This document shows positions 42,866 through 61,377 of a DNA stretch of 64,000 nucleotides, piece after piece. This stretch comes from Deltaproteobacteria bacterium (GTDB lineage: Bacteria; UBA10199; GCA-002796325; JACPFF01). Each line of letters opens with the position of its first letter. The first letter of the stretch is position 1. The translations under genes were made by a program, and so were the position numbers. The notes beneath the pieces are model-generated. The model had not been told where the DNA came from. It saw nothing but the letters and a program-made list of their open reading frames with translations, and ran no database searches. Location of the stretch: assembly GCA_016183065.1 (NCBI GenBank), contig JACPFF010000026.1, forward strand, positions 1 to 64,000. The letters are read 5' to 3'.

Positions 42866-43495
42866 TCAGTTGTCGACCACGCCCTGCGCTGCGATGGCAA
42901 AGGCAGAGACAAAATTTCCGTGCGTGGCGGTACGATAATGGCATTCCCATGGTCCATAATGGGCCCGCCGATGGGGGTCATCCACACGGATATCGGTCAA
43001 TCGTAGATTCGGGGTGGGTGGGAGCGCCTTGAGGCAGGCTTCCTTGATACACCAGAGTACCTTGCGGCGTGACGGCACGATGCGGTCATGTGGATGCCAT
43101 ATTCCATGTTGCATAGAGTGGAGTCTGTCGCGGCATTCAATGTCACAGCCGATACCAATACGACCGAGGTAACGCGCGTGCACATGCGCAATGACAGCAA
43201 AACACCATCCCGCTGCATGTGCCAGTGTGACGACAAATGGGCATCCCCTGTTGCGACAGCGCAACTGCGGATCGAAACTATGTCGGTGTCGTCGATTCGT
43301 GACTGACGATAATGCGTAGAGCGTCTGTGCGATCCACCATCGGCCAAATAACCGTTCAGCACGACGATCGGGATGGCGCTGCGTTTGAATATGTGCCCAT
43401 TCGATGTCGTCAAAACAGGATCGATATGCCTCTTCCGGCATATGCAGCAGGATGGGACCTACATACACCTGTTTAATGTGCAGCGGTGGTCGCAT
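42866..43495 (-). CDS. 4'-phosphopantetheinyl transferase (Sfp-type)
   Basis: 209 residues from the ATG at 43495. The two magnesium/CoA motifs are present: RIGIGCDIECRDR (G-x-D-x-E) and RRKVLWCIKEACLKAL (W-x-x-KEA). It overlaps the flippase gene by 23 bases and is the last gene of the long minus-strand operon. It should attach the phosphopantetheine arm to the conserved Ser of the ACP encoded at 50820, making the pathway self-contained. The N-terminal half is divergent from E. coli EntD/Sfp, and length is near the usual 220. Confidence 0.85.
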   Translation of the reverse strand: MRPPLHIKQVYVGPILLHMPEEAYRSCFDDIEWAHIQTQRHPDRRAERLFGRWWIAQTLYALSSVTNRRHRHSFDPQLRCRNRGCPFVVTLAHAAGWCFAVIAHVHARYLGRIGIGCDIECRDRLHSMQHGIWHPHDRIVPSRRKVLWCIKEACLKALPPTPNLRLTDIRVDDPHRRAHYGPWECHYRTATHGNFVSAFAIAAQGVVDN

Positions 43496-44747
43496 GTGCA
43501 AGAAATACTCTGTTGTGTGTAAGGCGCAGCCCAAGATAGATTGGGATCATCATGACAATGGCCGCGTGCAGAAGAAATGAGGTGATCAGGAGGGGCATGG
43601 AGGCATGGTGTGCGGTGAGCTGTAAGAACCCGCGTGCCACGATCATGGCTGCTGCAAAGATGGCGGCGACCACATACCCTTTCTGATCTGACTCAAGAAG
43701 ATATCGACTGACATGCATACCACCCATAAAGGGAATCAAGGCTGCGTCAGTCCAGATCACTATGGTCAGCGCGTGCACGGCGTCCTCGAGATGTGGCGTA
43801 CACAGAGAGAGAATCTGCTCCACATGCGTGAACACGCGGTATGCGAGGAAGACCGTCATGCCGATCCAGAGGAAAAGTGCTGGCGATATCGGTCGAATGT
43901 GCGACCAGTGAAACATCGCATGGTCGTGTTGGCGGCGTTGCGCGAGAACTTGACCGAGGGCAAGTGCGGGAATGAGGAAGAATGGTTTGAGTTGAAACCA
44001 ACCGGCAAACACCCCAACGTAGGCGGTATCCCACTGACCGACGATGCCATTGAGCCAATGACGGTCCAGTGCGACGACAGACCAACTGAGGATCAGGGGA
44101 ATCGAAAATCGACTATAGAGATGCAGAGAGTGTCCCTGCAGTGTGCAACGCCACAACGCGCGGTGCCAGGGTTGTAGCAACAGAAACCAGACGATGGATT
44201 CCAGGACTGCCACGTATGCCATCGTGTGCGCCCATGTCGAGGTGTCGAGCAGGTCGTGCAGTGCGCACCATATGGCCATGCCGATCGTGATGCACAGAAA
44301 CGCGAAATTCGCACGATAGATACGACGAAATGCCCCACGCGCACGCAAAATACCAATACAGCCTGCTGAGGCAATGCTGAGTGCCGCCATGATGAACAGC
44401 GGTCGAGCGATCAGGGTCATTTCAAATGTCGTGACACCCCCTGGTTGATACAGAAAACCACCAGCATAGTACATCAGTGCCAGGCTCGCTTGCCAGGCAA
44501 AGAGTGCCACGATGTTGGTCTGTGACTGTCGGCCGATCAGATAAAAGATCGCCATTTCCGTTCCCTCGGCAATGGCGAACCCCAGGAGGAGATAGGGGAG
44601 GAGCAGTCCGTAGACAATGATGGCACGGTCCGAGACTTGGGCAAAGACCAGACACATGACGAGCGGTGAGGCATATGTGGCGGCAAATCCTTTTGTGCTA
44701 TGCCATAATGTGCACAGCATCTCGTAATTGTGTTTCCACAGAGACAT
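43473..44747 (-). CDS. Polytopic membrane protein, flippase/MATE-like exporter
   Basis: 424 residues, about twelve hydrophobic helices in two halves, starting MSLWKHNYEMLCTLWHSTKG. The general layout matches the MVF/MATE (multidrug/oligosaccharidyl-lipid/polysaccharide) superfamily, without a strong family motif. It starts one base after the stop of the KAS-like gene and overlaps the phosphopantetheinyl transferase gene. A second MATE-type protein is encoded near the head of the same operon, so product and precursor may leave by separate exporters, or the two may form a heteromeric unit. Confidence 0.7.
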   Translation of the reverse strand: MSLWKHNYEMLCTLWHSTKGFAATYASPLVMCLVFAQVSDRAIIVYGLLLPYLLLGFAIAEGTEMAIFYLIGRQSQTNIVALFAWQASLALMYYAGGFLYQPGGVTTFEMTLIARPLFIMAALSIASAGCIGILRARGAFRRIYRANFAFLCITIGMAIWCALHDLLDTSTWAHTMAYVAVLESIVWFLLLQPWHRALWRCTLQGHSLHLYSRFSIPLILSWSVVALDRHWLNGIVGQWDTAYVGVFAGWFQLKPFFLIPALALGQVLAQRRQHDHAMFHWSHIRPISPALFLWIGMTVFLAYRVFTHVEQILSLCTPHLEDAVHALTIVIWTDAALIPFMGGMHVSRYLLESDQKGYVVAAIFAAAMIVARGFLQLTAHHASMPLLITSFLLHAAIVMMIPIYLGLRLTHNRVFLAHATTAAH

Positions 44748-44748
44748 A

Positions 44749-45687
44749 TTATTGTAGCCGGCGGAGTGTCAGACCAATGATGACCTCGCCGGGTTCGATG
44801 AATAGACACAGACATCGTGTGTTATTTGGCATATCGCTCTTGGCAAGCATCGCCAGGATTTCCAATCCATGGGCCATGCCACAGCAACCGTTGTGCCACG
44901 CCATACCGGTACGTACGTGCGAAAATTGTTCCAGCACGAGCGGAGCACACGCGGGATAAATGACCTGCGAGCATGTCGGTGGATGCTGGCGAAAAAAATG
45001 CGTCAGCTGTGTCATCGTGTCATCCAACATCATGTCCCATGCATGATCAGCCCAGGCGAACGGGTGTGGATGATAATATGCGATACAATCTTCATACACA
45101 TACGTCGGTCCTTCTGATGGAATATCTGTCGAGACAGATACCACCCCCGCAGCATCCGAAAGCCATCCCAGCGGCGAGAAGGCGCGATGCGCTGGCGCAA
45201 GGACCCGTTCAGCCCCCACAATGAGGCTCGTCGCAGAGGCCGATTGAGACTGGACCCAGTCAATGGTTTCCTGGAATGCGAGGCCCCATGTGGCGCCTCC
45301 CTGGTATTCTACCGTAAATGTCTCCGATGCCCGAATACCGGTGATATGTTGCAACCATGCCGCAGGGCATATGTGCAAATCTTCCGGGAAGGTCTGATGG
45401 CAGTAGACAAATTGTTGGCAGGAAGCGTGTGGATAGGCCTTCAATACTGCGGCGGCCAGTTCGACCTGACTCAGGCGAGGGCTTTGCACAAATGCGTGAG
45501 ACCGTCCCTCCCACGCCATCGGAGGGACATGGTGGCGAGGTAACAGTCCATGGGTACACAAATGCAAATAGTGTAACGAATCAAAGGGATCTTCGCTATG
45601 ACCTTCCAGATATTCTGCCCAGGATCTGAGGGATAATACCTCACCAACCGGTAGTACGGATGGTGTATGGATATAGACATCATGCAT
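44749..45687 (-). CDS. KAS III-fold protein lacking the catalytic cysteine
   Basis: 312 residues with the thiolase fold of ketoacyl-ACP synthase III proteins (strand-rich halves, TSLIVGAERVLAPAHRAFSP, NGCCGMAHGLEILAML near the end). Where active members have Q-x-C-x-x-G, this one reads EYQGGATWGLAF: the nucleophile Cys is a Gly. The His/Asn region is also altered (VIYPACAPLVLEQF). It overlaps the upstream decarboxylase gene by eight bases. It is likely a non-condensing partner of another KAS III in the operon (as in KAS/chain-length-factor pairs), or a transferase with a different mechanism (inference). Confidence 0.65.
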   Translation of the reverse strand: MHDVYIHTPSVLPVGEVLSLRSWAEYLEGHSEDPFDSLHYLHLCTHGLLPRHHVPPMAWEGRSHAFVQSPRLSQVELAAAVLKAYPHASCQQFVYCHQTFPEDLHICPAAWLQHITGIRASETFTVEYQGGATWGLAFQETIDWVQSQSASATSLIVGAERVLAPAHRAFSPLGWLSDAAGVVSVSTDIPSEGPTYVYEDCIAYYHPHPFAWADHAWDMMLDDTMTQLTHFFRQHPPTCSQVIYPACAPLVLEQFSHVRTGMAWHNGCCGMAHGLEILAMLAKSDMPNNTRCLCLFIEPGEVIIGLTLRRLQ

Positions 45688-46963
45688 ATCCGGTAACCAG
45701 CTGTTGGCCCTTTGCGAGAGTACGCCATGTCATTTGGGGACTGAGCATATGGATACAGCCGTTGCTGCCAGCCCATTCTGCGGGAAAACCCTCAAGGGCG
45801 CGCCATACCGCGCTGGTCGTTGGTCCATAGGCTCCCGAGTTGAGAAAGACGAGGTAATCGCCGATGGCCAAACGAGGTGCTGTTACACGGGTGGGCCATG
45901 GAAGACGCTGTCCATGGAGACGGTACGAGACGGCAGTTGGCAGCTTTCCACGTTTCCAGCCGTCACGATGCAGCCCGGCACCAAGAAAATGGCGATTCTT
46001 TGCGAGAAAACTTCCCGCGGATAATCCGTGAAGGGCTGGTGTCGCCGCGACTTCCACCTGTTGCAGGTCGCCGTCCATTGCGACGTGTTGCACGCGTGCA
46101 AAAAAACACCCCGCCGGACCGATAATATAACGGCCTGACTCCAGGTAAAACAGGCAGGGCGGGAGTCCGGTCGCGTGATAGGCGCGGACATGTTCCTGTA
46201 CTGCCTCGGCGAATGATTCAAATGCGCACTCATGCTCGTCTTCGTAGTAGGGAATGCCGAGACCTCCCCCGACGTCAACTTTGGTGCATATGGCGCCTGT
46301 CTGACCAAACTGACGCGCCTGCGCGATGACCTGTCCTACGTTCCATGCTGCATCCGTTGCGGAGGCAATCCGAGTCCCCACATAGATATGGATGCCACAG
46401 ACCTGGAGAGGAGATTGTCGATGGATGGCATCGTGCATGCAGTGAAGGGCCTCATCGCGTTCGAGACCAAATTGTGTGGTGCGACCCCCCATCGCCATGC
46501 GAACGCCCCGAACCTCGTACGTAGGATTAATGCGCACGATGGCCGTTGTCGGACATCGACGCGTGGTGGCAATATGCCGCAACATGTGGAGCTCGGACGC
46601 GGATTCCACGGCAACCGCGCCGATCTGGCGCTCGACCGCTAGAGTGAGCTCCGCACTGCTCTTTCCGGGGCCGACAAAACAGATGGTTTCCGATGCAAAT
46701 CCACTGCGCAACGCCAGTAATAACTCTGCACCAGAGGAGACATCGGCCCCACACCGTTCCTGCGCCAGCAATGTGAGGAGCGGCGGCGCTGGATTCGCCT
46801 TGAGTGAATAGAGCAGATGCATATTCTCTGGCAGTGCGCTCTGCATCGTGCGCACACGTGATCGTACGATGTCCATATCATAATAATAGCCTGCCGTCAG
46901 CTCAGCGGTGACACATGCCGTGTAGAGTGCTCGTCCATTGTGATGTGCGTCGCACAGATGCAT
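45680..46963 (-). CDS. PLP-dependent decarboxylase (DapDC/ODC/BtrK fold) with active-site lysine
   Basis: 427 residues from the ATG at 46963 (GGAGG ten bases upstream; ATG at 46972 is too close to it). The alanine-racemase-fold barrel shows the PLP lysine in LLYSLKANPAPPLLTLLAQE, phosphate-loop KVDVGGGLGIPY, and LESGRYIIGPAG. The C-terminal beta domain ends GDYLVFLNSGAYGPTTSAVW. The usual C-terminal active-site motif around Cys (C-x-S/G-x-D) is replaced by LHGQRLPWPTRV, with no Cys. In butirosin synthesis the related BtrK decarboxylates an amino acid held on an ACP, and the ACP and ATP-grasp genes of this operon suggest the same chemistry. It overlaps the Cys-less KAS gene. Confidence 0.82.
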   Translation of the reverse strand: MHLCDAHHNGRALYTACVTAELTAGYYYDMDIVRSRVRTMQSALPENMHLLYSLKANPAPPLLTLLAQERCGADVSSGAELLLALRSGFASETICFVGPGKSSAELTLAVERQIGAVAVESASELHMLRHIATTRRCPTTAIVRINPTYEVRGVRMAMGGRTTQFGLERDEALHCMHDAIHRQSPLQVCGIHIYVGTRIASATDAAWNVGQVIAQARQFGQTGAICTKVDVGGGLGIPYYEDEHECAFESFAEAVQEHVRAYHATGLPPCLFYLESGRYIIGPAGCFFARVQHVAMDGDLQQVEVAATPALHGLSAGSFLAKNRHFLGAGLHRDGWKRGKLPTAVSYRLHGQRLPWPTRVTAPRLAIGDYLVFLNSGAYGPTTSAVWRALEGFPAEWAGSNGCIHMLSPQMTWRTLAKGQQLVTGYA

Positions 46964-46991
46964 TGTCGACATTCCTCCATTGTCATGAGTG

Positions 46992-47930
46992 CTACTGCGC
47001 TTGTACGAGGAGACCGCCCCAACTTGCTCCCATGCCATAGGTCAGTGCGAGGGCGTAGGTCGATGTCGGTGGATGCTGCGCAACGAATTGCATCAACCCC
47101 AGCACGCAATCCGTTCCAAAAAGATGCCCCAAGGTCTCCATCTCCCGCTGCAGTAGGATCTGGCCGTGAAATTGCAAAAGCTCTCGGATACGCTGCCATG
47201 TCACCGGATTGCTGATATGGGGAATCACATGTGCAACCTGCTCAATGGTGATCCCATGCCGGACTAAGAGCGCATGAACGAGCGAACGGAGGGTGAAAAA
47301 ATATCGCCAGCTGAGTTCATCGCCAGCTCCACTCATGTCATATCGCGATGCATCGGTGATCACGTGCGTTCCCACATACGCGATTTCCGCGGGGGCATGG
47401 CTCAGAATCACCGCTGACGCCGCATCGCCCTGGATCACGCCGTTGCCCAATGTGCGGTGCGTCGTAAAATCCACAACGTCGACCGTGGCCACCAACACGT
47501 GAGAATATGGCCGTGTCGTCAACCAGTGCGCAGCCTGTCGCATGGCAGCAATAGTGCCTGAACACTGATGTCCGCCGAGATGCAGGTATGGTCCCGAAAC
47601 GCCAATGGGCTGCAATATGGATCGAACAAGAGAGCGTCCAGCGGGGAAGTGCGTCATCGGCAATGTGCAACAAAATACGGTGCCATCAATTATTGTCGCC
47701 GGCATCGATGCCCGTTCGAGCGCACCCGTAATGGCCTCACGCAGCAATGACATCTTTGCATCGGCCGACCATGCTGCCAGACATGCGACGGTGCGATCAT
47801 GACCTGCTGTTTCTTGCGTTGCAGAGATGCCCTCTATACGCATGATCGCACGACGCAACCGTCGCACCGTCCCCGTGACGCTATAGGCACCATGTACATA
47901 AATCCGACGTTGACGCTTCTGCTGATTCAT
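46992..47930 (-). CDS. KAS III-like ketosynthase with catalytic cysteine
   Basis: 312 residues from the ATG at 47930, overlapping the preceding gene by four bases. The nucleophile is in LHLGGHQCSGTIAAMRQA; the thiolase-fold strand NGVIQGDAASAVILSH and the His in HVIPHISNPVTW are where active-site residues are expected. The final Asn is not obvious (GHLFGTDCVLGLMQF). It should take an acyl or aminoacyl group onto Cys and condense it with an ACP- or CoA-bound extender. It is sandwiched between the two decarboxylase-fold genes. Confidence 0.75.
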   Translation of the reverse strand: MNQQKRQRRIYVHGAYSVTGTVRRLRRAIMRIEGISATQETAGHDRTVACLAAWSADAKMSLLREAITGALERASMPATIIDGTVFCCTLPMTHFPAGRSLVRSILQPIGVSGPYLHLGGHQCSGTIAAMRQAAHWLTTRPYSHVLVATVDVVDFTTHRTLGNGVIQGDAASAVILSHAPAEIAYVGTHVITDASRYDMSGAGDELSWRYFFTLRSLVHALLVRHGITIEQVAHVIPHISNPVTWQRIRELLQFHGQILLQREMETLGHLFGTDCVLGLMQFVAQHPPTSTYALALTYGMGASWGGLLVQAQ

Positions 47931-48904
47931 GGATCCACGGGATCTGCTGAGAGAAATGGCGAGGGAACCTGCTGGACCGGAACAAGGGAGCCATGCGTAT
48001 AGAGCATCTCGAGCGGCGCGGGATGGCTGATAAAATACAACGGGCTTCGATAGTGCGCACTGCCGGCATTCGGCAGTGCGATCAGATCGCCTGGGTGAAG
48101 TGCAGGAGCGGGTATATCGACCGCCAACAGATCTTGCGGCGTACACAGCGGTCCACAGAACGTGGTTGGACGCACTGTCGCCTCTGCTGCACTGTACGGG
48201 AAGAGTATCGGGTACTTCTTGCGCAACGCATTTCCCCGTTGTCCGGCATCCCAGAGCACGTTTGTTCCACCACTCATGATTGCATACTGACGTCCGTGGA
48301 CCTGCTTCACCGTGCGTACCACCAGCCACAAGGTACAGGCCTGATGCAGCAGTGCTTCTCCATGGAACACCATGCAGCGAATGTCATGATGTTCGCAGAA
48401 CTGTTGTATGCAATGTGACAGAGCATCATGGTCCTGGATTGATGCCCCCCGCGCATCAACAAGCCATTGTTTAGGGCGTTGTGCGATAGACCGCAGGGGT
48501 GCGCATTGAATGAGCTTCGGCAGGACATGATGGGGAATACAGGCGATCGAGTGAGAGGCTGGACAGGATGCCAGTGCCAGCCGTGTCCAGTCTTCTGGGG
48601 ATTCGATCCACAGAGCATGCTCATTCAGACAGCACACGTCAGATGGCGGAATATTCGTCAACTGAAGATAGGAGATCCACGCTGTTGTCGGAATGACGAC
48701 ATGGCAGCACAGCTGTTCGTGAATCCGTCGCACAACGGCAAGGGTTGGCTCTGTTTGGAGGTCGTACACATGCCGTATCCATGGGGGATATTGCTGCCCC
48801 ACTGTGCGGCAGTTTGCCTCCAATTGTGGGATGTCAACAACGACAAACGCCTCCTGGCCGCGTCGTACCCACTGCGTCAGTTGCTCTAGGTAGGGAAACT
48901 GCAT
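47927..48904 (-). CDS. Decarboxylase-fold protein without PLP lysine (paralogue of 45680)
   Basis: 325 residues of the same ODC/DapDC fold, but shortened. The N-terminal strand FVVVDIPQLEANCRTVGQQY aligns with the family; the PLP lysine of Y-x-L-K-A-N is replaced in VYDLQTEPTLAVVRRIHEQ (Gln). In contrast, the C-terminal motif CGPLCTPQDLLAVDIPAPAL keeps the active-site Cys, and PNAGSAHYRSPLYFIS the aromatic end. In this family the active site lies across the dimer, Lys from one chain and Cys from the other, so this protein could complete the site of the Lys-bearing paralogue. It overlaps the KAS gene by four bases. Confidence 0.7.
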   Translation of the reverse strand: MQFPYLEQLTQWVRRGQEAFVVVDIPQLEANCRTVGQQYPPWIRHVYDLQTEPTLAVVRRIHEQLCCHVVIPTTAWISYLQLTNIPPSDVCCLNEHALWIESPEDWTRLALASCPASHSIACIPHHVLPKLIQCAPLRSIAQRPKQWLVDARGASIQDHDALSHCIQQFCEHHDIRCMVFHGEALLHQACTLWLVVRTVKQVHGRQYAIMSGGTNVLWDAGQRGNALRKKYPILFPYSAAEATVRPTTFCGPLCTPQDLLAVDIPAPALHPGDLIALPNAGSAHYRSPLYFISHPAPLEMLYTHGSLVPVQQVPSPFLSADPVDP

Positions 48905-48932
48905 GGCGGTTATGCGTACACGGTATCAGACT

Positions 48933-50303
48933 TCACCCTTGTGCTGGACAAAGGGGTGAGGAGAGCACGTCCGAAGTGAAAAATGTATGTATACGTTGTG
49001 CGAGCATCTGCTGCAGTATGAGGCAACGGTCGCGAGTCGAGGCGAACACGGCGTACATAAGACGCGATCTGGCGGGGATCTCCCGTAGTCGACTGACCGT
49101 GGCCCAATTCATGATCATGAGCCCTTCATCGGTGCGATAGGGGAGTGCTTTGACGACACGGTCATGAAACTCGGAGAACGTTGGACGATGCTGCAATGTA
49201 AACATCACCTGGTTTGATAAGAGACATAGACCGTGATGTCGCGCCTGATCCAGGGCCCATTGAAAGGACGAGTTGTTGAGTCGTGCGTTAATTTCCAGCA
49301 ATGGATACACGGTTCCATTCTGAGCCACTAGCCCATCAACCCCAACAAGGCCCGTATAGCGGGCCGAGGCGAGTGCCGCTCCGATGACGTCGGCCGCATG
49401 ACGGCACGTTGCCTCAATGTGCGCATCGGGCATCGCTGGCGTAAAATGACCGAGATGTTTACATCCCTCGACCAGGGCCTCTTTGTAGAGATAATAACTG
49501 ACACGACCGGACGGGTGGAGAAAGAACTGATAGTTGAGGTCGTGGCGCTTTTCAATAAAGGTTTCAACAATCATTGTGCATGAATTGATGCTTCGGCGCT
49601 GGAGATATTCCAGATAATGCTCGAGTTCGGCTGTGGACGCGCACATGCGAATGCCGCGTCCACTGACTCCCATTGGATCTTTGAGCAACACCTTTCCATG
49701 TGTCTCTTGAAGCAACCGTGTGGCAATGTCATACAGCGCTGCCGGCGAATTGGCGATCAGCGAAGGGACGGTATGCGGCAATCCCGTCAGGCGGGAGGAA
49801 AAACACTTATCATTGACGCGATGGGTCACGTCAGAGGATGCACTGATATTTGGGATGCCCGTGTCTTGCACCAGTTGATCGGCTGCGATCGTGGCGCCAT
49901 AAAAGAAGAAACGGAGACGATTGCGCAGCGGATGGGCAGCAAGGGCTGCAAGAGTCGGCGGATCACGGCAGATCAGCTCGCAGATGTCCAACGTTGGATC
50001 GTCGTGTTGCACGATCAGCATGCGACAACGCGCCAATCCGTACTCCTGCAGATATGCAAGGAACTGTGAATCCGGCGCGCGACGCAAAATCACGATATCC
50101 TGTGGGCGTGCCAACAGGAGAACCAATTCCTCCATTGCGGCAATCACCTGGCGCTCCGTTCGCGGCGCGACGGAGGGCCCCATAATGTTCAGTGGATTTT
50201 TTCGTGGCCAGTGACGTTCCACTTCACATTCGATGGCCCAAATAACGGGATGGGGACCGATCCAGTGGAGCAGTGGAAGTGCTATCGGAGAAAAGTGGAG
50301 CAT
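48933..50303 (-). CDS. ATP-grasp ligase (BtrJ/PGM1-like, candidate amino acid:ACP ligase)
   Basis: About 456 residues from the ATG at 50303; the ATG at 50183 is an alternative that avoids a 79-base overlap. A pre-ATP-grasp region is followed by an ATP-grasp core: Lys in GKVLLKDPMGVSGRGIRMCA (phosphate-binding loop), MIVETFIEKRHDLNYQFFLH, and the metal site GVDGLVAQNGTVYPLLEINA followed by RLNNSS. This class makes amide or thioester bonds with ADP formation. BtrJ of butirosin loads glutamate on an ACP, and the ACP and decarboxylase here support an analogous loading step. The substrate amino acid cannot be read from sequence. Confidence 0.8.
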   Translation of the reverse strand: MLHFSPIALPLLHWIGPHPVIWAIECEVERHWPRKNPLNIMGPSVAPRTERQVIAAMEELVLLLARPQDIVILRRAPDSQFLAYLQEYGLARCRMLIVQHDDPTLDICELICRDPPTLAALAAHPLRNRLRFFFYGATIAADQLVQDTGIPNISASSDVTHRVNDKCFSSRLTGLPHTVPSLIANSPAALYDIATRLLQETHGKVLLKDPMGVSGRGIRMCASTAELEHYLEYLQRRSINSCTMIVETFIEKRHDLNYQFFLHPSGRVSYYLYKEALVEGCKHLGHFTPAMPDAHIEATCRHAADVIGAALASARYTGLVGVDGLVAQNGTVYPLLEINARLNNSSFQWALDQARHHGLCLLSNQVMFTLQHRPTFSEFHDRVVKALPYRTDEGLMIMNWATVSRLREIPARSRLMYAVFASTRDRCLILQQMLAQRIHTFFTSDVLSSPLCPAQG

Positions 50304-50823
50304 CGCTTTCCTTTCCGGCATCTTGTTCGAATGCGGTCCATGCGCGCCGCAGATAGCGGCGTAAGACAAAGGCATATTTACTGATATCAACACCATACAA
50401 TCGGACGTGATATTGTTGATATGACGTGTCCGCGGCGATCCGGAACACTACGGAGGGGATGATCTCGCAGGTCTCAGGGTTCAGTCGCCGGAGGTTGAGC
50501 CAACTCATAAGCTCACCGGCCGGACCATCGAGATGGAGGAGAACCCAGAGCGGAACCGTTTCTCGAAGGACCAGTCGCATTTCTCCATGTATCTGCAGCA
50601 TCGCGCCGGAAAGGCCATAATGTACATGTGGTGCGCGGATGTACACGAACTGGTCAGGCCGTGCAGTAGTGGAAAAGACCTCGGGACGAAGCACTCCGGC
50701 ATTACCGCAGTGACGGTAGAACATCGCCGCGATATGCTGTCCCCCAGTGACAGTCAGTGGTGCCCATCGCCGTGACATGCGTATGAACGCATATGGTGCC
50801 AGGTGTTGTGTGTGGCGCCTCAT
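50224..50823 (-). CDS. Hypothetical protein coupled to the ACP gene
   Basis: 199 residues. The ATG overlaps the ACP stop by four bases, indicating translational coupling. A predicted mixed alpha/beta chain with several beta segments (FVYIRAPHVHYGLSGAMLQI, MRLVLRETVPLWVLLHLDGP, QQYHVRLYGVDISKYAFVLR) and no signal or membrane helix. A weak PilZ-like impression is not supported by RxxxR or DxSxxG motifs. It may be an ACP-interacting protein such as a dehydratase- or cyclase-like partner; function unknown. Confidence 0.65.
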   Translation of the reverse strand: MRRHTQHLAPYAFIRMSRRWAPLTVTGGQHIAAMFYRHCGNAGVLRPEVFSTTARPDQFVYIRAPHVHYGLSGAMLQIHGEMRLVLRETVPLWVLLHLDGPAGELMSWLNLRRLNPETCEIIPSVVFRIAADTSYQQYHVRLYGVDISKYAFVLRRYLRRAWTAFEQDAGKESDAPLFSDSTSTAPLDRSPSRYLGHRM

Positions 50824-51104: not shown

Positions 51105-52119
51105 GGTGCGTGCCTTTCTCGTGTCCGTAGTGCATCGGACGTGTCGGGGTGAAAATCATTGTGCAGAGAGTCGTTCCGAGGCCCGTTGCATGCAGTGCCA
51201 CCGGCTTCTTTGCGCCTCGTCGCAAAACTTCCATCAGGCATCCAATGGCGATATGTGCAGATGTCAGTGCGTATTCCCGAACGTGGTCGTCAATAATAGT
51301 CCGCTTTGTCCGGGGATACGATGTCAGTCGGTCCATGGCCCGGTTCAATGGGGGATTGTTTGTCACAATGAATTCCATATCGTCGGCGGTGAAGCCCGTC
51401 TGAGTGAAGGCCCGTTCATATTCGTGGAGTGACCATTGCACACCCTTTACGGCCAGTGTGCGCAGCGTTTCCAATGGTTCGCGATACCGTCGGCCGCCCT
51501 GGGGAATGCAGCGTGAGGCCACGTAGTGAATGGGGCCACCCTCGCGACTCAGGAGGACGGCGCTCCCAGCATCTCCAAAGATCAGATGGTTGACCACCCG
51601 TGGTTCACCACAATGCGTTGCCACGCAGTCTCCACCAGCCACGATGACCCGATGGATGTCGGGACGGGCGGACATCACATACCACGCGGCTTCAATCGCG
51701 GCGATGCTGGACGCACAATTACGCTGAGTGACATGTGCGACGTAGCGCAGATCCATCATGCCTGTCAGTTCAGCAAGGCGCGATGGCATATTGATCGTAG
51801 TATCCTCGGGCCATGGAATGGCATCATAATAGAGCAAGGCATCGACGGCCGCGGGTGGCAGCGCATTGTTGGCAAGCAATTGCTCAACGGCCATCACGGC
51901 CAGATCCAGTGGGCGCTCGCTGCTCGCGATAGGGACAGAGGCGTACCCTGCGGCGCGATACGATGCGGGATCGAGCGAGGGGGTTGAGACATGATCATAG
52001 TTGGTGTCGAGACGCGTTCCCGCTGCAATGCGGGCCCGTTCGACGGCAATGACCTGTTCAACAGTGTAGCGTTTTGGTGCGGGGACGTACACGCAATCCT
52101 GGATGCCGATAGCGGCCAT
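51097..52119 (-). CDS. KAS III-like 3-oxoacyl-ACP synthase with catalytic cysteine
   Basis: 340 residues from the ATG at 52119 with AGGAGG four bases upstream. The nucleophile Cys sits in HVTQRNCASSIAAIEAAW. Other fold markers: VIVAGGDCVATHCGEPRVVN, LIFGDAGSAVLLSREGGPIH. The catalytic His position appears changed (FIVTNNPPLNRAMDRL), so the decarboxylating condensation mechanism may differ; SAHIAIGCLMEVL marks the last region. It overlaps the ACP gene by eight bases, an arrangement that pairs a carrier with its condensing enzyme. It is the closest to ordinary FabH of the three KAS-fold proteins here. Confidence 0.82.
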   Translation of the reverse strand: MAAIGIQDCVYVPAPKRYTVEQVIAVERARIAAGTRLDTNYDHVSTPSLDPASYRAAGYASVPIASSERPLDLAVMAVEQLLANNALPPAAVDALLYYDAIPWPEDTTINMPSRLAELTGMMDLRYVAHVTQRNCASSIAAIEAAWYVMSARPDIHRVIVAGGDCVATHCGEPRVVNHLIFGDAGSAVLLSREGGPIHYVASRCIPQGGRRYREPLETLRTLAVKGVQWSLHEYERAFTQTGFTADDMEFIVTNNPPLNRAMDRLTSYPRTKRTIIDDHVREYALTSAHIAIGCLMEVLRRGAKKPVALHATGLGTTLCTMIFTPTRPMHYGHEKGTHHE

Positions 52120-52150
52120 CGTTCCTCCTTTCGTGTGCAGAATGAAAATG

Positions 52151-53296
52151 TCAGATACGGAGATGCGTGCAGATATGTTCGCGCTGCATCTCTCCTGTCC
52201 CTTCGAGAATATCAAAGACCTTGGCCGCCCGGTACAATCGTTCGAACAAGTGTCCTTCGACCAATGCCTCTGCGCCAATGATCTCGATGCCGCGAACGGC
52301 CATCCGCATGGCGAATTGTGCCGTGTATGCCTTTGCAATCGAGACGGCGTATTGGGCCGGGAGTCCGGTATCGTGGGCATGAGCGGCCCGTTGACAGAGC
52401 ATCCGTCCTATGTGGATGTCACGTTCCACCTCCGGAAGTGTCTTGCCGTATTCGCTGCGCAATGTGTCGGCAATGGCACGCGCGATTCCCACGCTGATGG
52501 CCGAGACTTCGATGCGAAAAAAGCTCCACGCGGCCGTCGCACCATGGAATCCAGCCAGATAGGCCTTTCTGTCGGGGCCGCAGAGGAGTTGCGATTTGGG
52601 TACAAAGCACTCATCCAGGACGATTTCGGCAATGCCCGCCGCGCCAAGGCCCATCATTTTCTCGACGGTTCCAATCGAAAATCCTGGGGCATCACGGTCG
52701 ACAATGAAGGCACGCAATCCGAATTGTTTCCGGGATGCATCAATCGTCGCAAAGACAATCGTGTAATCCGCGCGGGCCCCATTGGTGATGAAGCACTTTG
52801 TCCCATTGAGGATGTATCCGCCGTCGACCTTGCGGGCGCGGGTCCGCAATGCTGTTGCATCGGATCCGGCATGGCTTTCGGTGATGGCAAATGCGCCCCA
52901 TACATTGCGCTGTGTGCTGAACTTCCGAAAATAGCGCTCACGCTGCGCTTCGGATCCGAATGCGCAGAGCACCGGAAACGTCAGACTTGGGCCCGGCAAC
53001 CCGCAGGTCAAACCGGGATCACCCCACGCGAGCTCCTCGGTCAGCAGAATACTGATCTGCGAGGAGCATTCAATCCGCCGGTCGCTGCCCGGAATCGGTA
53101 CGCCCCCACCATACCTGCAGGGAACGTAGGCAGCGCTCAGAATGTCCGCCCAAGGATGTTCCAGGACTCGCGGGGGGATCTCTCCTGTGCGGTCTGCCAC
53201 TGCTGCCGCAGGCCGGAGGTGCTCTCGCGCAAAACAGCGGGCTTCTTCACGCAACGCCGCGTGCTGTGCAGGTGTCAGTGTGGGTATTGGTGTCAT
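52151..53296 (-). CDS. Acyl-CoA/acyl-ACP dehydrogenase, complete active site
   Basis: 381 residues from the ATG at 53296. All ACAD parts are present: FAD/substrate loop WGAFAITESHAGSDATALRT, GTKCFITNGARADYTIVFAT, and the catalytic Glu in FDILEGTGEMQREH. It uses FAD to form a 2,3-double bond in an acyl thioester, here probably ACP-bound. Its start overlaps the preceding, degenerate ACAD-like gene by about 50 bases. Dehydrogenation of an aminoacyl or acyl-ACP would give an unsaturated intermediate in the pathway (inference). Confidence 0.88.
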   Translation of the reverse strand: MTPIPTLTPAQHAALREEARCFAREHLRPAAAVADRTGEIPPRVLEHPWADILSAAYVPCRYGGGVPIPGSDRRIECSSQISILLTEELAWGDPGLTCGLPGPSLTFPVLCAFGSEAQRERYFRKFSTQRNVWGAFAITESHAGSDATALRTRARKVDGGYILNGTKCFITNGARADYTIVFATIDASRKQFGLRAFIVDRDAPGFSIGTVEKMMGLGAAGIAEIVLDECFVPKSQLLCGPDRKAYLAGFHGATAAWSFFRIEVSAISVGIARAIADTLRSEYGKTLPEVERDIHIGRMLCQRAAHAHDTGLPAQYAVSIAKAYTAQFAMRMAVRGIEIIGAEALVEGHLFERLYRAAKVFDILEGTGEMQREHICTHLRI

Positions 53297-54230
53297 TTGC
53301 AATGATGGCTCCGAGTTCTCGCAACATCGTTTTCAGCACCTGGGCATCACGCATCCATTTTTCGACAGGATGATCCTCGAGATAGCCATGACCACCCAAG
53401 ACCTGTACTGCACCTTCAACAATGTCATCGAGCACAGTACAGAGCAGACATTGTGATTGCCATACCGCACCCGGTGTCTGCGGATGGTGCAACGCATGAT
53501 CAAAACACGCTGTTGCCCGTTCATACCCAATGGCCATATTGGCGAGTTTCTGTGAGACGGCCTGCCACCGGACAATGGCGCGTCCGAATGTCTGACGTTC
53601 ATGGGCATAGGCATGTGCGTATTGAATCGTTGCACGCAGGAGACCGAATGTCACACATTGGTACAACAGACTGATTTCGTCGAGGAAGCTTGCATAGTCG
53701 GATGTGGAGATATTTCCCAGCATCACACGCACCGGTGCGGATTGTGGCGCGAACCATGAAATGCCGCGAAATCCCATATACTGGCGAGTGGCGGCCATGG
53801 TCGTACCTATCAAGAGGAGTTCGTGCCCACTGGCACTCGACCGAATCATATAGCTATCGGCTACCGGTACATTCATCGCCATCACAAATGCGCACGGCTC
53901 ATAGGGGAAAATCGGGGCCGTGACGAGCGGATGCGCTGCCCTCGACTGTAAGGCGCTGTGGATGAGTCCAGCAAACAGACGGAGGGCGATGGCGGCGTCC
54001 CGCTGCCCGACGCACCCGATGATCTGTGCAAGGGCCGCTGCATCACAATATGGGTTGTGATAGAATCCCCCCGAGGCGATGTCGTGCAGGCCCAGTTCAC
54101 TGGCCCGCGCGGCAATTGCTGACCACACGGCTGGATCTCGCTCCATGCGCCGTGACATGGGCGCCACGCATGTCGCGGCAAAGTCTTCAACCGGTGGCAA
54201 CAACGCATTGGTCATTTCATTTGTGCACAT
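53247..54230 (-). CDS. Degenerate acyl-CoA dehydrogenase-like protein
   Basis: 327 residues, about 50 shorter than usual. The C-terminal helical domain is recognisable (AYAHERQTFGRAIVRWQAVS, VQVLGGHGYLEDHPVEKWMR), but the middle beta domain lacks the FALTEP/GSD FAD-substrate motif. The position of the catalytic Glu motif (Y/L-E-G-T) reads VLKTMLRELGAIIAN. It is therefore probably inactive alone and could form a heteromer with the intact ACAD encoded downstream, as known for heteromeric ACADs in bacterial steroid degradation. Confidence 0.75.
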   Translation of the reverse strand: MCTNEMTNALLPPVEDFAATCVAPMSRRMERDPAVWSAIAARASELGLHDIASGGFYHNPYCDAAALAQIIGCVGQRDAAIALRLFAGLIHSALQSRAAHPLVTAPIFPYEPCAFVMAMNVPVADSYMIRSSASGHELLLIGTTMAATRQYMGFRGISWFAPQSAPVRVMLGNISTSDYASFLDEISLLYQCVTFGLLRATIQYAHAYAHERQTFGRAIVRWQAVSQKLANMAIGYERATACFDHALHHPQTPGAVWQSQCLLCTVLDDIVEGAVQVLGGHGYLEDHPVEKWMRDAQVLKTMLRELGAIIANDTNTHTDTCTARGVA

Positions 54231-54242
54231 GGCATTCGTCCC

Positions 54243-55244
54243 TTATTGGTGATATCGCAGACGCAAATCCGCCAATCCGGTCACAGCGCGTACTTTGAAT
54301 GGGGCCGCAGGGTTCGTGGCCACGTCAACGTGGACATCTGACAGGCCACTTTTGATGGTTGGGGCCACGACGGCCCCTTCGGGGAATTCAAGCGTGGAAT
54401 CTGTGGCACCCGCACGAATGTCGACCTCTCCGGACGACGGCATCTGTATCCAGCGGAGAAACAATTCTCCCAGCCCTGTGCGGACCTCGACAGTTGACGA
54501 GCGGATCTCTCCCCAAAGGGTTCCCACGCCAACTTTTACTGCAAGTGGGCCTGCCAGGTTGGTGAGATGGAGTGTCCCTTTGCGCACTTCGGCAGTGATC
54601 GCAAGGCCCGAGGGGACCATGAGACCGACATCCACCTCGCAATCACCAGGATCCAGCACGGCCTTCTCGGTTTTGACAACGATGCTATCTGCTTCCGTCG
54701 TCACTTCGGTTTGGCAGCTTGGACTGCTCTTGCGTGGGTAGGTGCGCAGCTCGATGGTGTCTGTCGCAATACCGGCGACATGTACCACGCCCACATCATG
54801 CCGCACAGTGAGGTGATCGACCTGCACTGCCGGAATCACCCGTGTGATATCGGGTGCCGTACTGGTGTCAAAGACAAAAGCGGCATTTCGACCGGTTGTT
54901 TCTGCGACCTCTGTGGACATGTCGCGCTGTGTGCCGACGAATTGCGTAACGCTTGCGCGAAAAGATGCAACCGCTGCACGCACATTGTGCTCGACGGTGT
55001 GCGCCACACTGGTGGCAGTATTGCGTGCCGTCGCCCATATGGTTTGTTCATCCCAGCGGGAAGCCAATGCTCTGGTCCCGCCAAGCCATTGCATGGCCGT
55101 CTGTACCTCGTCGACCGCTTCAACCACATGGTCAACAAAAGATGCGGCGGTTTGTTGCACGCCAGATGTCACGTCAGCGATGAATCGCTCGATGTAACAT
55201 GCGGGCACATTTGTACTGCTACTGCAGGTGCGTAGGTCTCCCAT
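54243..55244 (-). CDS. DUF4097-like beta-helix protein with N-terminal helical region
   Basis: 333 residues; AAGGAGGTG precedes the ATG at 55244. Residues ~1-130 are helical, without signal peptide, with amphipathic repeats (QQTAASFVDHVVEAVDEVQT). Residues ~140-333 contain the short repeated beta strands of DUF4097-type 'putative adhesin' domains (HLTVRHDVGVVHVAGIATDT, EVRKGTLHLTNLAGPLAVKV, GLADLRLRYHQ). It is paralogous to the secreted protein at 55328. Why a biosynthetic operon carries such proteins is unclear; the structure might bind a membrane or scaffold. Confidence 0.65.
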   Translation of the reverse strand: MGDLRTCSSSTNVPACYIERFIADVTSGVQQTAASFVDHVVEAVDEVQTAMQWLGGTRALASRWDEQTIWATARNTATSVAHTVEHNVRAAVASFRASVTQFVGTQRDMSTEVAETTGRNAAFVFDTSTAPDITRVIPAVQVDHLTVRHDVGVVHVAGIATDTIELRTYPRKSSPSCQTEVTTEADSIVVKTEKAVLDPGDCEVDVGLMVPSGLAITAEVRKGTLHLTNLAGPLAVKVGVGTLWGEIRSSTVEVRTGLGELFLRWIQMPSSGEVDIRAGATDSTLEFPEGAVVAPTIKSGLSDVHVDVATNPAAPFKVRAVTGLADLRLRYHQ

Positions 55245-55327
55245 GAGACACCTCCTTTGGTGTTTGGTCAGGTAAGCAAGTGAATATCGCCATCAGTCAG
55301 CAATACGAACGATGCCGCGGAATGGTG

Positions 55328-56014
55328 TTATGATGACTGCGGATACTGCAGTGTGACGCTGCCAAAACCCACCTTGGCCTGCAGCAAAAACCCCGAGGTG
55401 CTACTGGTTTGTAATGCATTGATAATGCGACCAAAACCTTGCACGAGGTCCGGTCGGATGGTCGTGCCGCGGGGAAAGGTCAATGTTACGACCCCAGCGC
55501 CCGCCTTGATGGCGAGAATTCCGCGCTGTGGCACGTGGCCCCAGACAAGGTCGACGTGGCCCGCGCCCAGCTTGATGTGGGTGTCCTCCGAATCGATGGT
55601 GCCTCGGACATGGCCCGCACCCATGTTAATATGCAATGGCCCCCGGAGATGCGCGAGCTGCACCCTGCTTGCTCCACTGTCGGCACGCACCGCCAGTGTG
55701 CGCGGCATCGTGACCACAAGATCCACCTCACAGCTCAGGCCGGAAAAGAGGGCATGTGCGGTTTTCACGAGCACGGTGTCTCCTTCCGTGCGCACTTTTG
55801 TCAGACAGCTGAGTCCGCCTTTGACCTTCTCTGCCCGCACGTGAATCGTCTCTGTTTCCATTCCTTCGATCCGCACCGTCCCTTCCTCGTGCTTGATCCA
55901 TACGGTTGTCACGCCTGCCTGCGGAACGGTGTGATCCAGCAACACCTCACCGGCACGCGCAAGACTGCTCCACGACAGAGCGCTGATCATGATTGTGACC
56001 ATCAAGTAGAGCAT
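55328..56014 (-). CDS. Secreted DUF4097-type beta-helix protein
   Basis: 228 residues from the ATG at 56014 (GAGGAGG upstream). The signal peptide MLYLMVTIMISALSWSSLAR is followed by repeated strand-turn units: TTVWIKHEEGTVRIEGMETE, ADSGASRVQLAHLRGPLHIN, MGAGHVRGTIDSEDTHIKLG, FGSVTLQYPQSS. This is the DUF4097 layout of parallel beta strands. Similar in order and content to the second half of the protein at 54243. Probably periplasmic or surface-exposed. Confidence 0.7.
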   Translation of the reverse strand: MLYLMVTIMISALSWSSLARAGEVLLDHTVPQAGVTTVWIKHEEGTVRIEGMETETIHVRAEKVKGGLSCLTKVRTEGDTVLVKTAHALFSGLSCEVDLVVTMPRTLAVRADSGASRVQLAHLRGPLHINMGAGHVRGTIDSEDTHIKLGAGHVDLVWGHVPQRGILAIKAGAGVVTLTFPRGTTIRPDLVQGFGRIINALQTSSTSGFLLQAKVGFGSVTLQYPQSS

Positions 56015-56046
56015 ATATACCTCCTCAGTATGCGTACGGCTGCGTC

Positions 56047-56277
56047 CTAAAACGGAACCTCGTTCATCCACTGCATGGCACAGTGCCACCATCCATTATC
56101 GGCCACCACAGGCCAGCCGTCAGTGACCGCCTTCATTGCCTGCGCAACATGACCAATGAGCAGTGCCAATGCAACCACGAAAGTCAGGCCAGGGACAAGG
56201 AAGATCACAAGGTTGATCAGGAGCACGATAAGGATCAACAACATCACGAATAAGCTGATGAATGCCAGGGTTGTCAT
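56047..56277 (-). CDS. Small membrane protein
   Basis: 76 residues from the ATG at 56277, chosen because GGAGGTCCTG lies just upstream; earlier ATGs fall inside the MATE gene. Two helices (MTTLAFISLFVMLLILIVLL and INLVIFLVPGLTFVVALALL) and a short polar, Trp-rich tail. It follows the MATE exporter by 17 bases and may be its accessory subunit. No family recognised. Confidence 0.55.
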   Translation of the reverse strand: MTTLAFISLFVMLLILIVLLINLVIFLVPGLTFVVALALLIGHVAQAMKAVTDGWPVVADNGWWHCAMQWMNEVPF

Positions 56278-56294
56278 CAGGACCTCCATGACGG

Positions 56295-57665
56295 TCATTG
56301 TACGGCGCATTGTGCGACAGCCACGTGCGGTCGTCCAACACGTTGTGATTGCATGAGCCGGCGGTAGGATCGGATGAACCAGATGGCCTCCACTGCATGC
56401 AAGACATGTGACCATGGTAAGATATACCGCAACGCCATTGGCCCCATCACGGGCACGATGATCAGATAGGGAAGTAATCGGCCAAAGACCACGACGATCA
56501 CCAAGGTGATGAGATTGGGATAGGTCTTCCCCGTCCCTTCAAAGGCTCCCTGACCAATAAATCCGAGGGCAAGAAACGGAAATCCGACGACCTCAGACTG
56601 AAAAACGAGAACGGCAAATTCACGGGCCCCGGTGGCATCGGGAGCCAGCAGCGATAAGGCCGGCGCGATTCCACAATAGCAAATGATGACCAGACCTATA
56701 TATGCGAGCACGATAACACGAAATGTGGCGGACACACCATGCCACGCGCGGGCTATTTGTCCGGCCCCAAGGTGCTGACTGACAAAAATGCTTATGCCAA
56801 CACTGATGGCAATGGCGGGGAACAGCGCCATGGTGCGGACTCGTTCAAGAAGACCAAGGGCAGAGAGCGTTTCTGTGCCATAGTGGGAAAAAAATCCGAC
56901 GGTCATTCCGGCCTCGATGGCCCCCAGAAGATTGCCTGCCATTACCGGCACGGCCATCAACAAAAATTGCCGCAGCCATCTCTGAGAAACGGCCATCCAT
57001 CGCGCAGGACGCCCGCGGATGGCCAAGCAACGCATATAGACCGCGGTGCACACTACCGAAATCCACATGGCGACAATCGTCGAAAGTCCGATGCCACTGA
57101 TGGAGAGATGGCCCGACCACAATAACGCGCCTTGGAGCGCGACTTTGGTCCCTATGAACGTCAGGGATCCAACATAGGACGGTGAAGTATGGCCAGTCCC
57201 ACCGCACAGGGCCGCTTGATAGGCCCGAACGCACCAGGGAACGATGCTGGCCACAAAGCACAAGGCATAGAGGGTAAACCCCTTCGAGACTACGGGAGAC
57301 ATGGTGAACACTCGAGGCGCAATCGGGAGCAGGGCAAATCCGCAGACGGTCACGAGGAGGCCCACTCCCACGAGAAGCCCCCATCCCGTATCGCGCACCT
57401 CTGCTAATTGCTGCGGGTCACGCGTTCCCACCGCCCGGCCAATCAGTACGATCAATGGGATACTGAATCCTTCCAGCACCGCATACACGACAAAGAGGCA
57501 GGGCGACAAATAGGTGGCTACCGCAATATAGTCGGCTGTGAGTCTTCCCAAAAAATAGATATCGACCGAGAGCCAGAGGCTATTGATCACCATGCTGGCG
57601 AAAATTGGTGCTGAAAGTCGTGCAATGGCACGACCGATCGGTTGCGTTGTGATATCGTCTCTCAT
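56295..57665 (-). CDS. MATE-family efflux transporter
   Basis: 456 residues from the ATG at 57665, overlapping the hydrolase stop by four bases (ATGA). Twelve helices with the MATE layout: PIGRAIARLSAPIFASMVIN at the start, WLSVDIYFLGRLTADYIAVA, and in the second half PVMAGNLLGAIEAGMTVGFF and FPFLALGFIGQGAFEGTGKT. It exports cationic or amphiphilic small molecules using a proton or sodium gradient; in this operon the substrate is presumably the pathway product. Confidence 0.88.
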   Translation of the reverse strand: MRDDITTQPIGRAIARLSAPIFASMVINSLWLSVDIYFLGRLTADYIAVATYLSPCLFVVYAVLEGFSIPLIVLIGRAVGTRDPQQLAEVRDTGWGLLVGVGLLVTVCGFALLPIAPRVFTMSPVVSKGFTLYALCFVASIVPWCVRAYQAALCGGTGHTSPSYVGSLTFIGTKVALQGALLWSGHLSISGIGLSTIVAMWISVVCTAVYMRCLAIRGRPARWMAVSQRWLRQFLLMAVPVMAGNLLGAIEAGMTVGFFSHYGTETLSALGLLERVRTMALFPAIAISVGISIFVSQHLGAGQIARAWHGVSATFRVIVLAYIGLVIICYCGIAPALSLLAPDATGAREFAVLVFQSEVVGFPFLALGFIGQGAFEGTGKTYPNLITLVIVVVFGRLLPYLIIVPVMGPMALRYILPWSHVLHAVEAIWFIRSYRRLMQSQRVGRPHVAVAQCAVQ

Positions 57666-58597
57666 GGCAGTTGCGTAATGAAATGATCGATAGCGGTCAG
57701 AAAATTTTCGGGTTCCTCTTGGAATGGATTGTGTCCCGAGTGGGAAAATATGATGCGTTGGGCATGGTGTATCGCCTTCCAATAGGTCTCCAGACACGCG
57801 CGATCGACAATGCGATCATGCGTGCCACCGATGACCAACGTCGGACACTCGACACGAAGCAGTTGCGGGGTAATATCCCTCGTCATGACGCTGTGATATT
57901 CGCAGGCTGCGAACAAGGTGTCATCGGCATCCTGCAGACTGTTCGCATCATATTCCCCGGTGCTAAGCGTGCTGCGGATATTGGCCTCCATGGCCGTGCG
58001 AGTGGCATCGTGGTCCCGATAGTACAAACCCGCGATGCGAGCATAATGGAACAACTGTGTAAATCGCGCGAATCCCAATGGGAGTTGAGTAATCCGTGTC
58101 AGGTTGTGCAGGGCCTTGGCATTGTCAGAGAAAAAACCCCGGAGATGGCAGAGGAGATTATACAGCATCTCCGGAAACGAGGCGGGCCCGCACACGTTGA
58201 TCAACGCCCGTGTCCGTCGGGGCATCTGACTGGCAAAGAGCCCGGCGAGCATGCCGCCCCACGAATGTCCCATGACAATCATCGGTGGAAGGGCAAGCTG
58301 CTCATGCATGTGGCACAGGCCCACAAGGAATGCATCCGGATCATGATCCTCGCACGGGATGTCTCGTGGAGAATGTCCACATCCCGGTTGATCCACCCAT
58401 AACACCGTGTAGCGGGCTTCCAAGAGGCGACCACAACAGGCAGAAAAGTATGCACAGTTGTCACCGGGTCCCCCGTGGAGAAATAGGACGACGGGTTGAT
58501 CCGTTGCGTGGCGGACCAGTCGGTAGGCGAATGGTGGACTGGTGCGTGTAAACTCCCACTGAAATCTGTCTTGGGCCCCCTCGATCATGCAAGTCAT
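57662..58597 (-). CDS. Alpha/beta hydrolase (proline iminopeptidase-like, S33)
   Basis: 311 residues from the ATG at 58597 (GAGGA upstream). Oxyanion region VVLFLHGGPGDNCAYFSACC, nucleophile GHSWGGMLAGLFAS, acid IGGTHDRIVD and His in SHSGHNPFQEEPENF complete the triad. HGGPG plus GHSWGG is the S33 aminopeptidase signature, so the natural substrate may be an amide or ester of an amino acid. In this operon it could release the product from the ACP or trim a protecting aminoacyl group, as BtrG/BtrH-type steps do in butirosin (inference). Confidence 0.87.
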   Translation of the reverse strand: MTCMIEGAQDRFQWEFTRTSPPFAYRLVRHATDQPVVLFLHGGPGDNCAYFSACCGRLLEARYTVLWVDQPGCGHSPRDIPCEDHDPDAFLVGLCHMHEQLALPPMIVMGHSWGGMLAGLFASQMPRRTRALINVCGPASFPEMLYNLLCHLRGFFSDNAKALHNLTRITQLPLGFARFTQLFHYARIAGLYYRDHDATRTAMEANIRSTLSTGEYDANSLQDADDTLFAACEYHSVMTRDITPQLLRVECPTLVIGGTHDRIVDRACLETYWKAIHHAQRIIFSHSGHNPFQEEPENFLTAIDHFITQLP

Positions 58598-58611
58598 TGT
58601 CGGCAGTTTCC

Positions 58612-59190
58612 TCAGTGGTCGTGCGTGATCCTGGGGCGGGTAATGCATGCGAGATCCAACCGAATGCGCTTATTATCTAACGAAACACAAATTGTTGCGC
58701 GGTGTTTTCGTTTGGAGAATTTGAGAATCATCCCTTCTTTTCCCTGTAAGGGGCCTGAGATAATATGTACGCGATCGCCCTGTAACTCACCATGGGAGAG
58801 CCCCGCTGTCCCCGTATTGCCGGTTAACGCCTGCAGCAGATCCATTTCATGCGATTGCACGGGAATTAGTGACTCTCCGAGGCGGACAGGGCCATACATA
58901 CTGTCAGGCCTGTTGTCGATCACGTGCCGCAGCACAGTTGGAGCACATTGAATAAATGCGTATCCCGGATAGAGCGGTCGTCGGCGTAACTGAAATGCTC
59001 CCCGATGGTATTCCAGCAACAGACGCATGGGTTGGAATATGCGGATGATTTTTTGCCCGAGACGTTGTCGCAATATCTCCAAGCCCTGTGTTGTGGCCCG
59101 TTGTTGAAACGCCAATGCCCACCATGCCTGTTGTGACTGCGTGTCTATTATGCCCTCTCTTTCATGTGCCGTCATATGTACGACATCCAT
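58612..59190 (-). CDS. Specialised NusG paralogue (RfaH/LoaP-like antiterminator)
   Basis: 192 residues if begun at the ATG at 59190 (AAGG upstream), 187 from 59175. The NGN domain begins QQAWWALAFQQRATTQGLEI and holds RRRPLYPGYAFIQC, and the C-terminal KOW domain is GDRVHIISGPLQGKEGMILK. Family members RfaH, UpxY and LoaP travel with RNA polymerase and prevent termination in long operons; LoaP does so in polyketide clusters of Bacillus. Being the first gene of an ~16 kb operon and directly behind a sigma-54 promoter fits this role well. Housekeeping NusG is normally next to rplK, which is absent here. Confidence 0.88.
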   Translation of the reverse strand: MDVVHMTAHEREGIIDTQSQQAWWALAFQQRATTQGLEILRQRLGQKIIRIFQPMRLLLEYHRGAFQLRRRPLYPGYAFIQCAPTVLRHVIDNRPDSMYGPVRLGESLIPVQSHEMDLLQALTGNTGTAGLSHGELQGDRVHIISGPLQGKEGMILKFSKRKHRATICVSLDNKRIRLDLACITRPRITHDH

Positions 59191-61353: not shown

Positions 61354-61377
61354 GCTCGGCCTCGCCGCTGTGAAATT

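Follow-up and report, generated by a model that had tools for sequence, protein, structure and literature searches.

Do paired genes for two decarboxylase-type and two acyl-CoA dehydrogenase (ACAD)-type proteins in one operon encode separate enzymes, or the parts of single ones? The question is raised by 18 intact frames, all on the minus strand (59190 to 42866), in a window of 64,000 nucleotides (positions 1 to 64,000 of contig JACPFF010000026.1, assembly GCA_016183065.1) from a Deltaproteobacteria bacterium. A first-pass annotation made from the letters alone had listed two decarboxylases and two ACAD proteins; their family membership held, but their standing as separate enzymes is doubtful: each pair showed reciprocal loss of residues and looks like one split enzyme. 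What appears to be new here is that paired genes share out their active sites in this reciprocal way, most notably for the decarboxylase, whose subunits are called DECA and DECB below. We consider it reasonably likely that these form a naturally evolved, obligate heterodimeric fold-III pyridoxal phosphate (PLP) decarboxylase with one composite site, within an acyl carrier protein (ACP) pathway whose dehydrogenase, and probably also condensing enzyme, are active/dead pairs.

Reciprocal residue loss in the decarboxylase pair

The best PDB match of both DECA (45680..46963, minus strand as are all operon genes, start at about 46963) and DECB (47927..48904) was BtrK of butirosin biosynthesis (E 8e-43 and 3e-18), the match of DECB being limited to the C-terminal sheet domain. 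In a fold-III decarboxylase, the barrel of one subunit provides the PLP contacts of a site and its partner provides a Cys-containing loop; in ornithine decarboxylase (ODC), the Lys and Cys of each site belong to different subunits, and mixed Lys- and Cys-mutants regain partial activity (PMC3289617). Residues were placed using a published list of active-site residues (PMC5518511). Aligned with five full-length relatives, DECA kept SLKAN, the Gly loop, E-GRY and SGAYG, and had LHGQRLPWPT or LNGRRLRWPS (in two genomes) where the relatives have GPLCTPxD. DECB (325 residues) kept CGPLCTPQD; its Lys, Gly loop, Glu and Tyr are gone, as are several segments of the barrel.

A total of 122 alignment columns were invariant in the five relatives. 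Of these, 50 were retained in DECA but not DECB and 15 in DECB but not DECA, whereas 11 survived in both proteins and 46 in neither of them; among barrel columns, DECA kept 38 of 65 and DECB 4 of 65. The positions kept only by DECA included Lys, GGG, Glu, Arg and Tyr, and those kept only by DECB the trans Cys, Asp and Phe. A perfect partition between the two proteins was also seen for the ten literature residues that could be placed by motif (p = 0.002 in a simple counting test that ignores linkage of neighbouring columns, with Asp and Phe placed by our own judgement). Reciprocal loss was found in both genomes that carry the pair, the window and G005 (a genome of the same order and a different family), and both halves stood in one chain in 22/22 other decarboxylases aligned. 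The PLP Lys, Gly loop, Glu and Tyr that enzymes of the BtrK, diaminopimelate decarboxylase and ODC type carry on one subunit are present in DECA and absent from DECB; the Cys/Asp loop, which these homodimers carry on the same chain and use in trans, is lost in DECA and carried by DECB. Because the loop sits on DECB, DECA alone is not a complete fold-III member. The two look like a single enzyme divided over two chains, each bearing the half of the active site that the other lacks, and would therefore be expected to work only as a pair.

DECB might instead be a regulatory or scaffolding pseudoenzyme like the trypanosome prozyme, allosterically activating a DECA that has re-evolved its own substrate loop. 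Precedents exist in AdoMetDC and deoxyhypusine synthase, each activated by a catalytically dead paralogue (PMC5201418, PMC3663545), and the replacement loop of DECA (HGQRLPWPT / NGRRLRWPS) is partly conserved. However, CGPLCTPQD is unchanged between two DECB proteins that are only 36% identical overall, and a purely allosteric DECB would not need it, which makes this explanation rather unlikely. We regard it as very improbable that DECB is a decaying remnant and that DECA, alone or by a new mechanism, is the enzyme, with a chemistry that may not be decarboxylation. The shortness of DECB, its missing barrel segments and the very long branches of both proteins would fit such decay, but a remnant would have broken, and DECB occupies the same place in the gene order, with its frame unbroken, in two families whose copies are 36% identical; moreover, the residues lost by DECA are kept in all 22 relatives. 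The same long branches dominate the decarboxylase tree, in which one duplication and two sources were not separated.

As an obligate heterodimer, the split decarboxylase seems unprecedented; we know of no described bacterial case of an obligately heterodimeric, one-site fold-III PLP decarboxylase. It would offer a natural test of the passage from a symmetric two-site homodimer to a one-site heterodimer, in which the mixing of ODC Lys and Cys mutants appears as an evolved state.

An apparently divided dehydrogenase and the condensing enzymes

A comparable division was seen by profile and motif alignment in the ACAD pair. The catalytic subunit, ACADl (52151..53302), keeps the middle domain and the catalytic Glu (ILEGTGEMQR) and has lost RxxFG...Q and GGxGY; the catalytically dead partner, ACADs (53247..54230), keeps ERQTFGRAIVRWQAVSQ and VLGGHGY but is without the catalytic Glu and the greater part of the middle domain. 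The motifs presumed to make FAD contact in trans are those expected from ACAD structures. By sequence, the Glu is on one subunit and the FAD-contact motifs only on the other, as in heteromeric (alpha2beta2) ACAD enzymes, and the equivalent division, with some motif drift, occurs in six other clusters (Streptomyces, Tritonibacter and four loci of the order of genome G371). In steroid alpha2beta2 enzymes, each heterodimer has a single Glu and a single FAD site (PMC8399759), and the pair in the window likewise looks like one heteromeric dehydrogenase. The next-best models of ACADl include prolyl-carrier-protein dehydrogenases, which fits a carrier-bound substrate, short of proof.

Three proteins of KASIII fold had been claimed, and profiles recovered two, KASIII-1 (51097..52119, start at 52119 uncertain) and KASIII-2 (46992..47930, start at 47930 uncertain). 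No protein carries the Cys-His-Asn triad: KASIII-2 has Cys-His-His and belongs to a KASIII group with His (GH motif) as third catalytic residue, beside Cys and usually His; KASIII-1 keeps Cys only, having lost the His and Asn positions; KASIII-3 (44749..45687) has none of the three. KASIII-3 matched no profile. The best 50 PDB matches of its low-confidence AlphaFold model (predicted local distance difference test, pLDDT, 50) were all thiolase-fold enzymes, and against a deeper KAS profile hhalign gave a moderate probability of 51%; AlphaFold jobs drew relative sequences from locus L015 and left out the two G005 contigs. Comparisons by hhalign of KASIII-3 with KASIII-2 (two-row profiles) and with the Cys-less KAS proteins of other clusters gave no support. 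Related clusters also hold a Cys-less KAS relative (hhalign 92% to the active group). We propose KASIII-3 as a Cys-less partner of KASIII-2.

Conservation of the operon

The 18 genes are closely packed, as first described. If the likely starts are taken, adjacent genes overlap by 4, 4, 4, 7, 8, 8, 37, 56 and 62 bases, and the other gaps are 1-83 bases. The host is a 1.97 Mb draft genome, 88.8% complete, and was compared with a set of 46 genomes for the phylum. A search for the same gene order, as the first-pass annotation had suggested, recovered 14 genes (56092 to 42866) in the same order in G005, at 32-65% protein identity, and because of this recurrence the operon is more than a chance arrangement. 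The G005 copy lies on two contigs, D40a-D40b-ACADs-ACADl-KAS1-ACP-unknown-ATPgrasp-DECB on one (L029) and KAS2-DECA-KAS3-membrane protein-PPTase on the other (L012), the contig end falling between DECB and KASIII-2. Genes before D40a, from the small membrane protein back, lie beyond the G005 contig sequence, and nothing in the whole of G005 matched the S33 hydrolase or the NusG-like protein. KASIII-2 was present in 2/46 genomes of the phylum; a scan of genome contigs with DECA as query returned the G005 contig only, and one with the ATP-grasp protein returned no relative. Among named relatives, the nearest one carrying the operon is the metagenome-assembled genome 'uncultured delta proteobacterium AlinenLipids_bin-3264'.

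This is a real, conserved and uncharacterised biosynthetic operon. In the open-access literature, outside which most subscription papers fall, we found neither the operon nor related clusters nor a product assignment; a published product for some relative is possible. Thus the earlier label 'undescribed' stands for the window operon in that literature, but related clusters occur in several other bacterial groups. The operon contains no nonribosomal peptide synthetase (NRPS) or polyketide synthase (PKS) module, as had been claimed. As the family, in its window version, has no such module and no product was found for it, module-based mining could overlook it.

A proposed carrier-bound pathway

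We judge it likely that the genes form a single operon for the biosynthesis of a small molecule that is made on a dedicated carrier protein and then exported, in an ACP-tethered amino-acyl pathway with one-site heteromers, among them the composite DECA:DECB site. Butirosin and vicenistatin biosynthesis both use a PLP enzyme to decarboxylate an ACP-bound amino acid, followed by protection and deprotection (PMC6133997, PMC11284099), and from this precedent we therefore infer a route of loading, decarboxylation, desaturation, condensation, release and export. The 4'-phosphopantetheinyl transferase (PPTase; 42866..43534; PF01648 E 3e-7, above cutoff) would activate the ACP (50820..51104; DSL serine; PF00550 E 2e-9), on which the ATP-grasp ligase (48933..50396, start at 50396 or 50303; PF18604 and PF02786, PreATP-grasp/ATP-grasp, above cutoffs) would load an amino acid, by analogy with BtrJ most likely through the side-chain carboxyl of glutamate. 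The DECA:DECB heterodimer would then take off the alpha-carboxylate on the ACP, as BtrK does, at a single site to which DECA would contribute PLP and Lys and DECB the Cys/Asp loop, and an ACADl:ACADs heteromer would put in an alpha,beta double bond. KASIII-2 with KASIII-3, together with KASIII-1, could carry out chain extension, transfer or release. The S33 alpha/beta hydrolase of proline-iminopeptidase type (57662..58648; TIGR01250 E 9e-26; Pfam Abhydrolase_1) may remove a protecting residue or release the product, and the MATE exporter (56295..57665; PF01554 E 2e-26; TIGR00797 E 7e-22) would export it. The polyamine-like product suggested earlier found no support. The binding of a single ACP per complex is a possible reason for several enzymes of one pathway all having become one-site heteromers.

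Several points weigh against this reading. DECB is known from two genomes only, with no third case in 385 genomes searched with a DECB profile, and its single-sequence AlphaFold model failed (pLDDT 35) and was not used. By profile, no enzyme whose substrate is known comes close to the ATP-grasp protein, the best NCBIfam matches of which are weak. The proposed sequence of steps is modelled on butirosin and vicenistatin. We observed directly the gene order, its conservation and the reciprocal loss of residues; heteromer assembly, chemistry, step order, substrate and product are what we infer.

The least probable alternative, a cyclopentane amino acid or polyketide made by an AmcF/AmcG-type route (cispentacin or coronafacic acid), finds some footing in AmcB as the best NCBIfam model of the ACP (E 4e-10), in a weak match of KASIII-2 to AmcG (E 0.02) and in the active/dead condensing pair on a dedicated ACP of the cispentacin system (PMC10698177), but we rejected it on profile cutoffs (AmcB 39.7 bits vs 80; AmcG 14.4 vs 80) and gene content, the adenylating enzyme AmcH, hot-dog decarboxylase AmcE and transaminase AmcC not being present among the operon genes.

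Other genes of the operon and its surroundings

Profiles confirmed the ACP, PPTase and MATE genes and upheld the earlier family labels for the LoaP/NusG-like protein, the S33 hydrolase, both ACAD proteins, two KASIII proteins, the ATP-grasp enzyme and both ornithine/diaminopimelate-decarboxylase-type proteins; for the labels 'DUF4097' and 'flippase', no model scored above its cutoff. The first gene of the operon encodes the LoaP/NusG-like antiterminator paralogue (58612..59190; NCBIfam LoaP E 2e-26). LoaP was the best among NusG-type models, at 93 bits against a cutoff of 125, and a separate canonical NusG is encoded on C17 of the host genome; a LoaP-like protein in this leading position would fit a long biosynthetic operon. 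Scans for promoters and terminators gave sites no commoner than in shuffles. Upstream on the same strand are two possible regulators, a sigma-54-type response regulator (59944-61395) and a small frame (59349-59783) that by eye resembles a histidine-kinase dimerisation region. A link to solanimycin, raised by the MATE model SolL, was rejected, the sol cluster having different enzymes.

The remaining frames encode a small membrane protein (56047..56301, start uncertain), an open reading frame with a hydrophobic stretch and no family match; the D40 pair; a conserved protein of no family between the ACP and ATP-grasp genes (50224..50823; 34-38% identity to its G005 counterpart at L029 5080-5607), so far seen in this lineage only; and a polytopic membrane protein (43473..44747; 37% identity in G005), flippase-like by eye, which matched no profile or family. 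D40a (55328..56014; 38% identity in G005) has a signal-peptide-like start and a weak match to NCBIfam LiaG (E 5e-5), and its paralogue D40b (54243..55244; 33%) matches the D40a of G005 at E 2e-30; neither matched DUF4097 in Pfam. As paralogues of the conserved core (L029 46-1680 in G005), at least one with an export-signal-like start, they are unusual for a biosynthetic operon. Profile searches for the flippase-like protein, the D40 pair and the protein of no family gave nothing firm.

Related clusters in other bacteria

Searches by tblastn on plasmids and of whole genomes found related clusters: L033 in Streptomyces decoyicus, L030 in Tritonibacter, L031 in Rahnella, and L043 and L075-L077, which form a group within the order of G371. 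They indicate a biosynthetic cluster family spread over several bacterial groups. In L043 and L075-L077, the genes run KASIII, ATP-grasp, decarboxylase, ACP, Cys-less KAS, (KASIII), ACADs, ACADl, and 3/4 of these loci have a MATE gene. Tritonibacter mobilis encodes the decarboxylase and catalytic ACAD as a single fusion protein of 812 residues (L030 14932-17370). ATP-grasp and decarboxylase genes shared a cluster in 18/19 of the ATP-grasp loci profiled (L043, L075-L077 and 14/15 others); in many other genomes, an ATP-grasp relative shares a cluster with a BtrK-like decarboxylase. This co-occurrence supports, by association, the load-then-decarboxylate reading and, together with BtrK as best structural match, bears out the BtrI/BtrJ/BtrK analogy drawn at first.

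Six further loci of the G371 order (L083, L084, L085, L086, L088 and L091) have two ATP-grasp genes, most with a decarboxylase of BtrK-like motifs, and are perhaps butirosin-like load-and-protect systems. More distant ATP-grasp relatives in G249 (L045) and G379 (L046) have no recognised decarboxylase nearby.

Comparison with known systems

All the related clusters share KASIII, decarboxylase, ACP, Cys-less KAS and ACAD genes with the window, and all except Rahnella a shortened ACAD partner; several have a MATE-type exporter, and L033, L043 and L075-L077 an ATP-grasp gene. They differ in their undivided decarboxylase and, in some, adenylation enzymes, and the D40 pair was not identified in them. 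With btrI/btrJ/btrK of butirosin (Bacillus circulans), the window shares, in one cluster, a dedicated ACP, an ATP-grasp loader and a fold-III PLP decarboxylase for an ACP-bound amino acid, but in BtrK a single chain holds the complete site, and the ATP-grasp enzyme is likened to BtrJ by role, not sequence. We know of no KASIII or ACAD pairs among the butirosin side-chain genes.

The vicenistatin genes vinL/vinN/vinO/vinM/vinJ likewise provide PLP decarboxylation of an ACP-bound amino acid, and an amidohydrolase later takes off the protecting residue (PMC11284099), a role that the iminopeptidase-type hydrolase of the window may share; in that system, however, an adenylation enzyme loads and a modular PKS follows. 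Steroid-degrading ACAD enzymes (ChsE1/2, ChsE4/5) resemble the window pair in having Glu on one subunit and FAD at the dimer interface (PMC8399759), and ACADs weakly matches the IpdE2 model, but they act on CoA esters in catabolism whereas the window pair presumably acts on the ACP. Cispentacin biosynthesis (amcB-H) uses a dedicated ACP with a type II condensing pair in which one subunit is active and the other lacks the motifs (PMC10698177), and differs in its loader, decarboxylase and later enzymes, with the profile cutoffs unmet.

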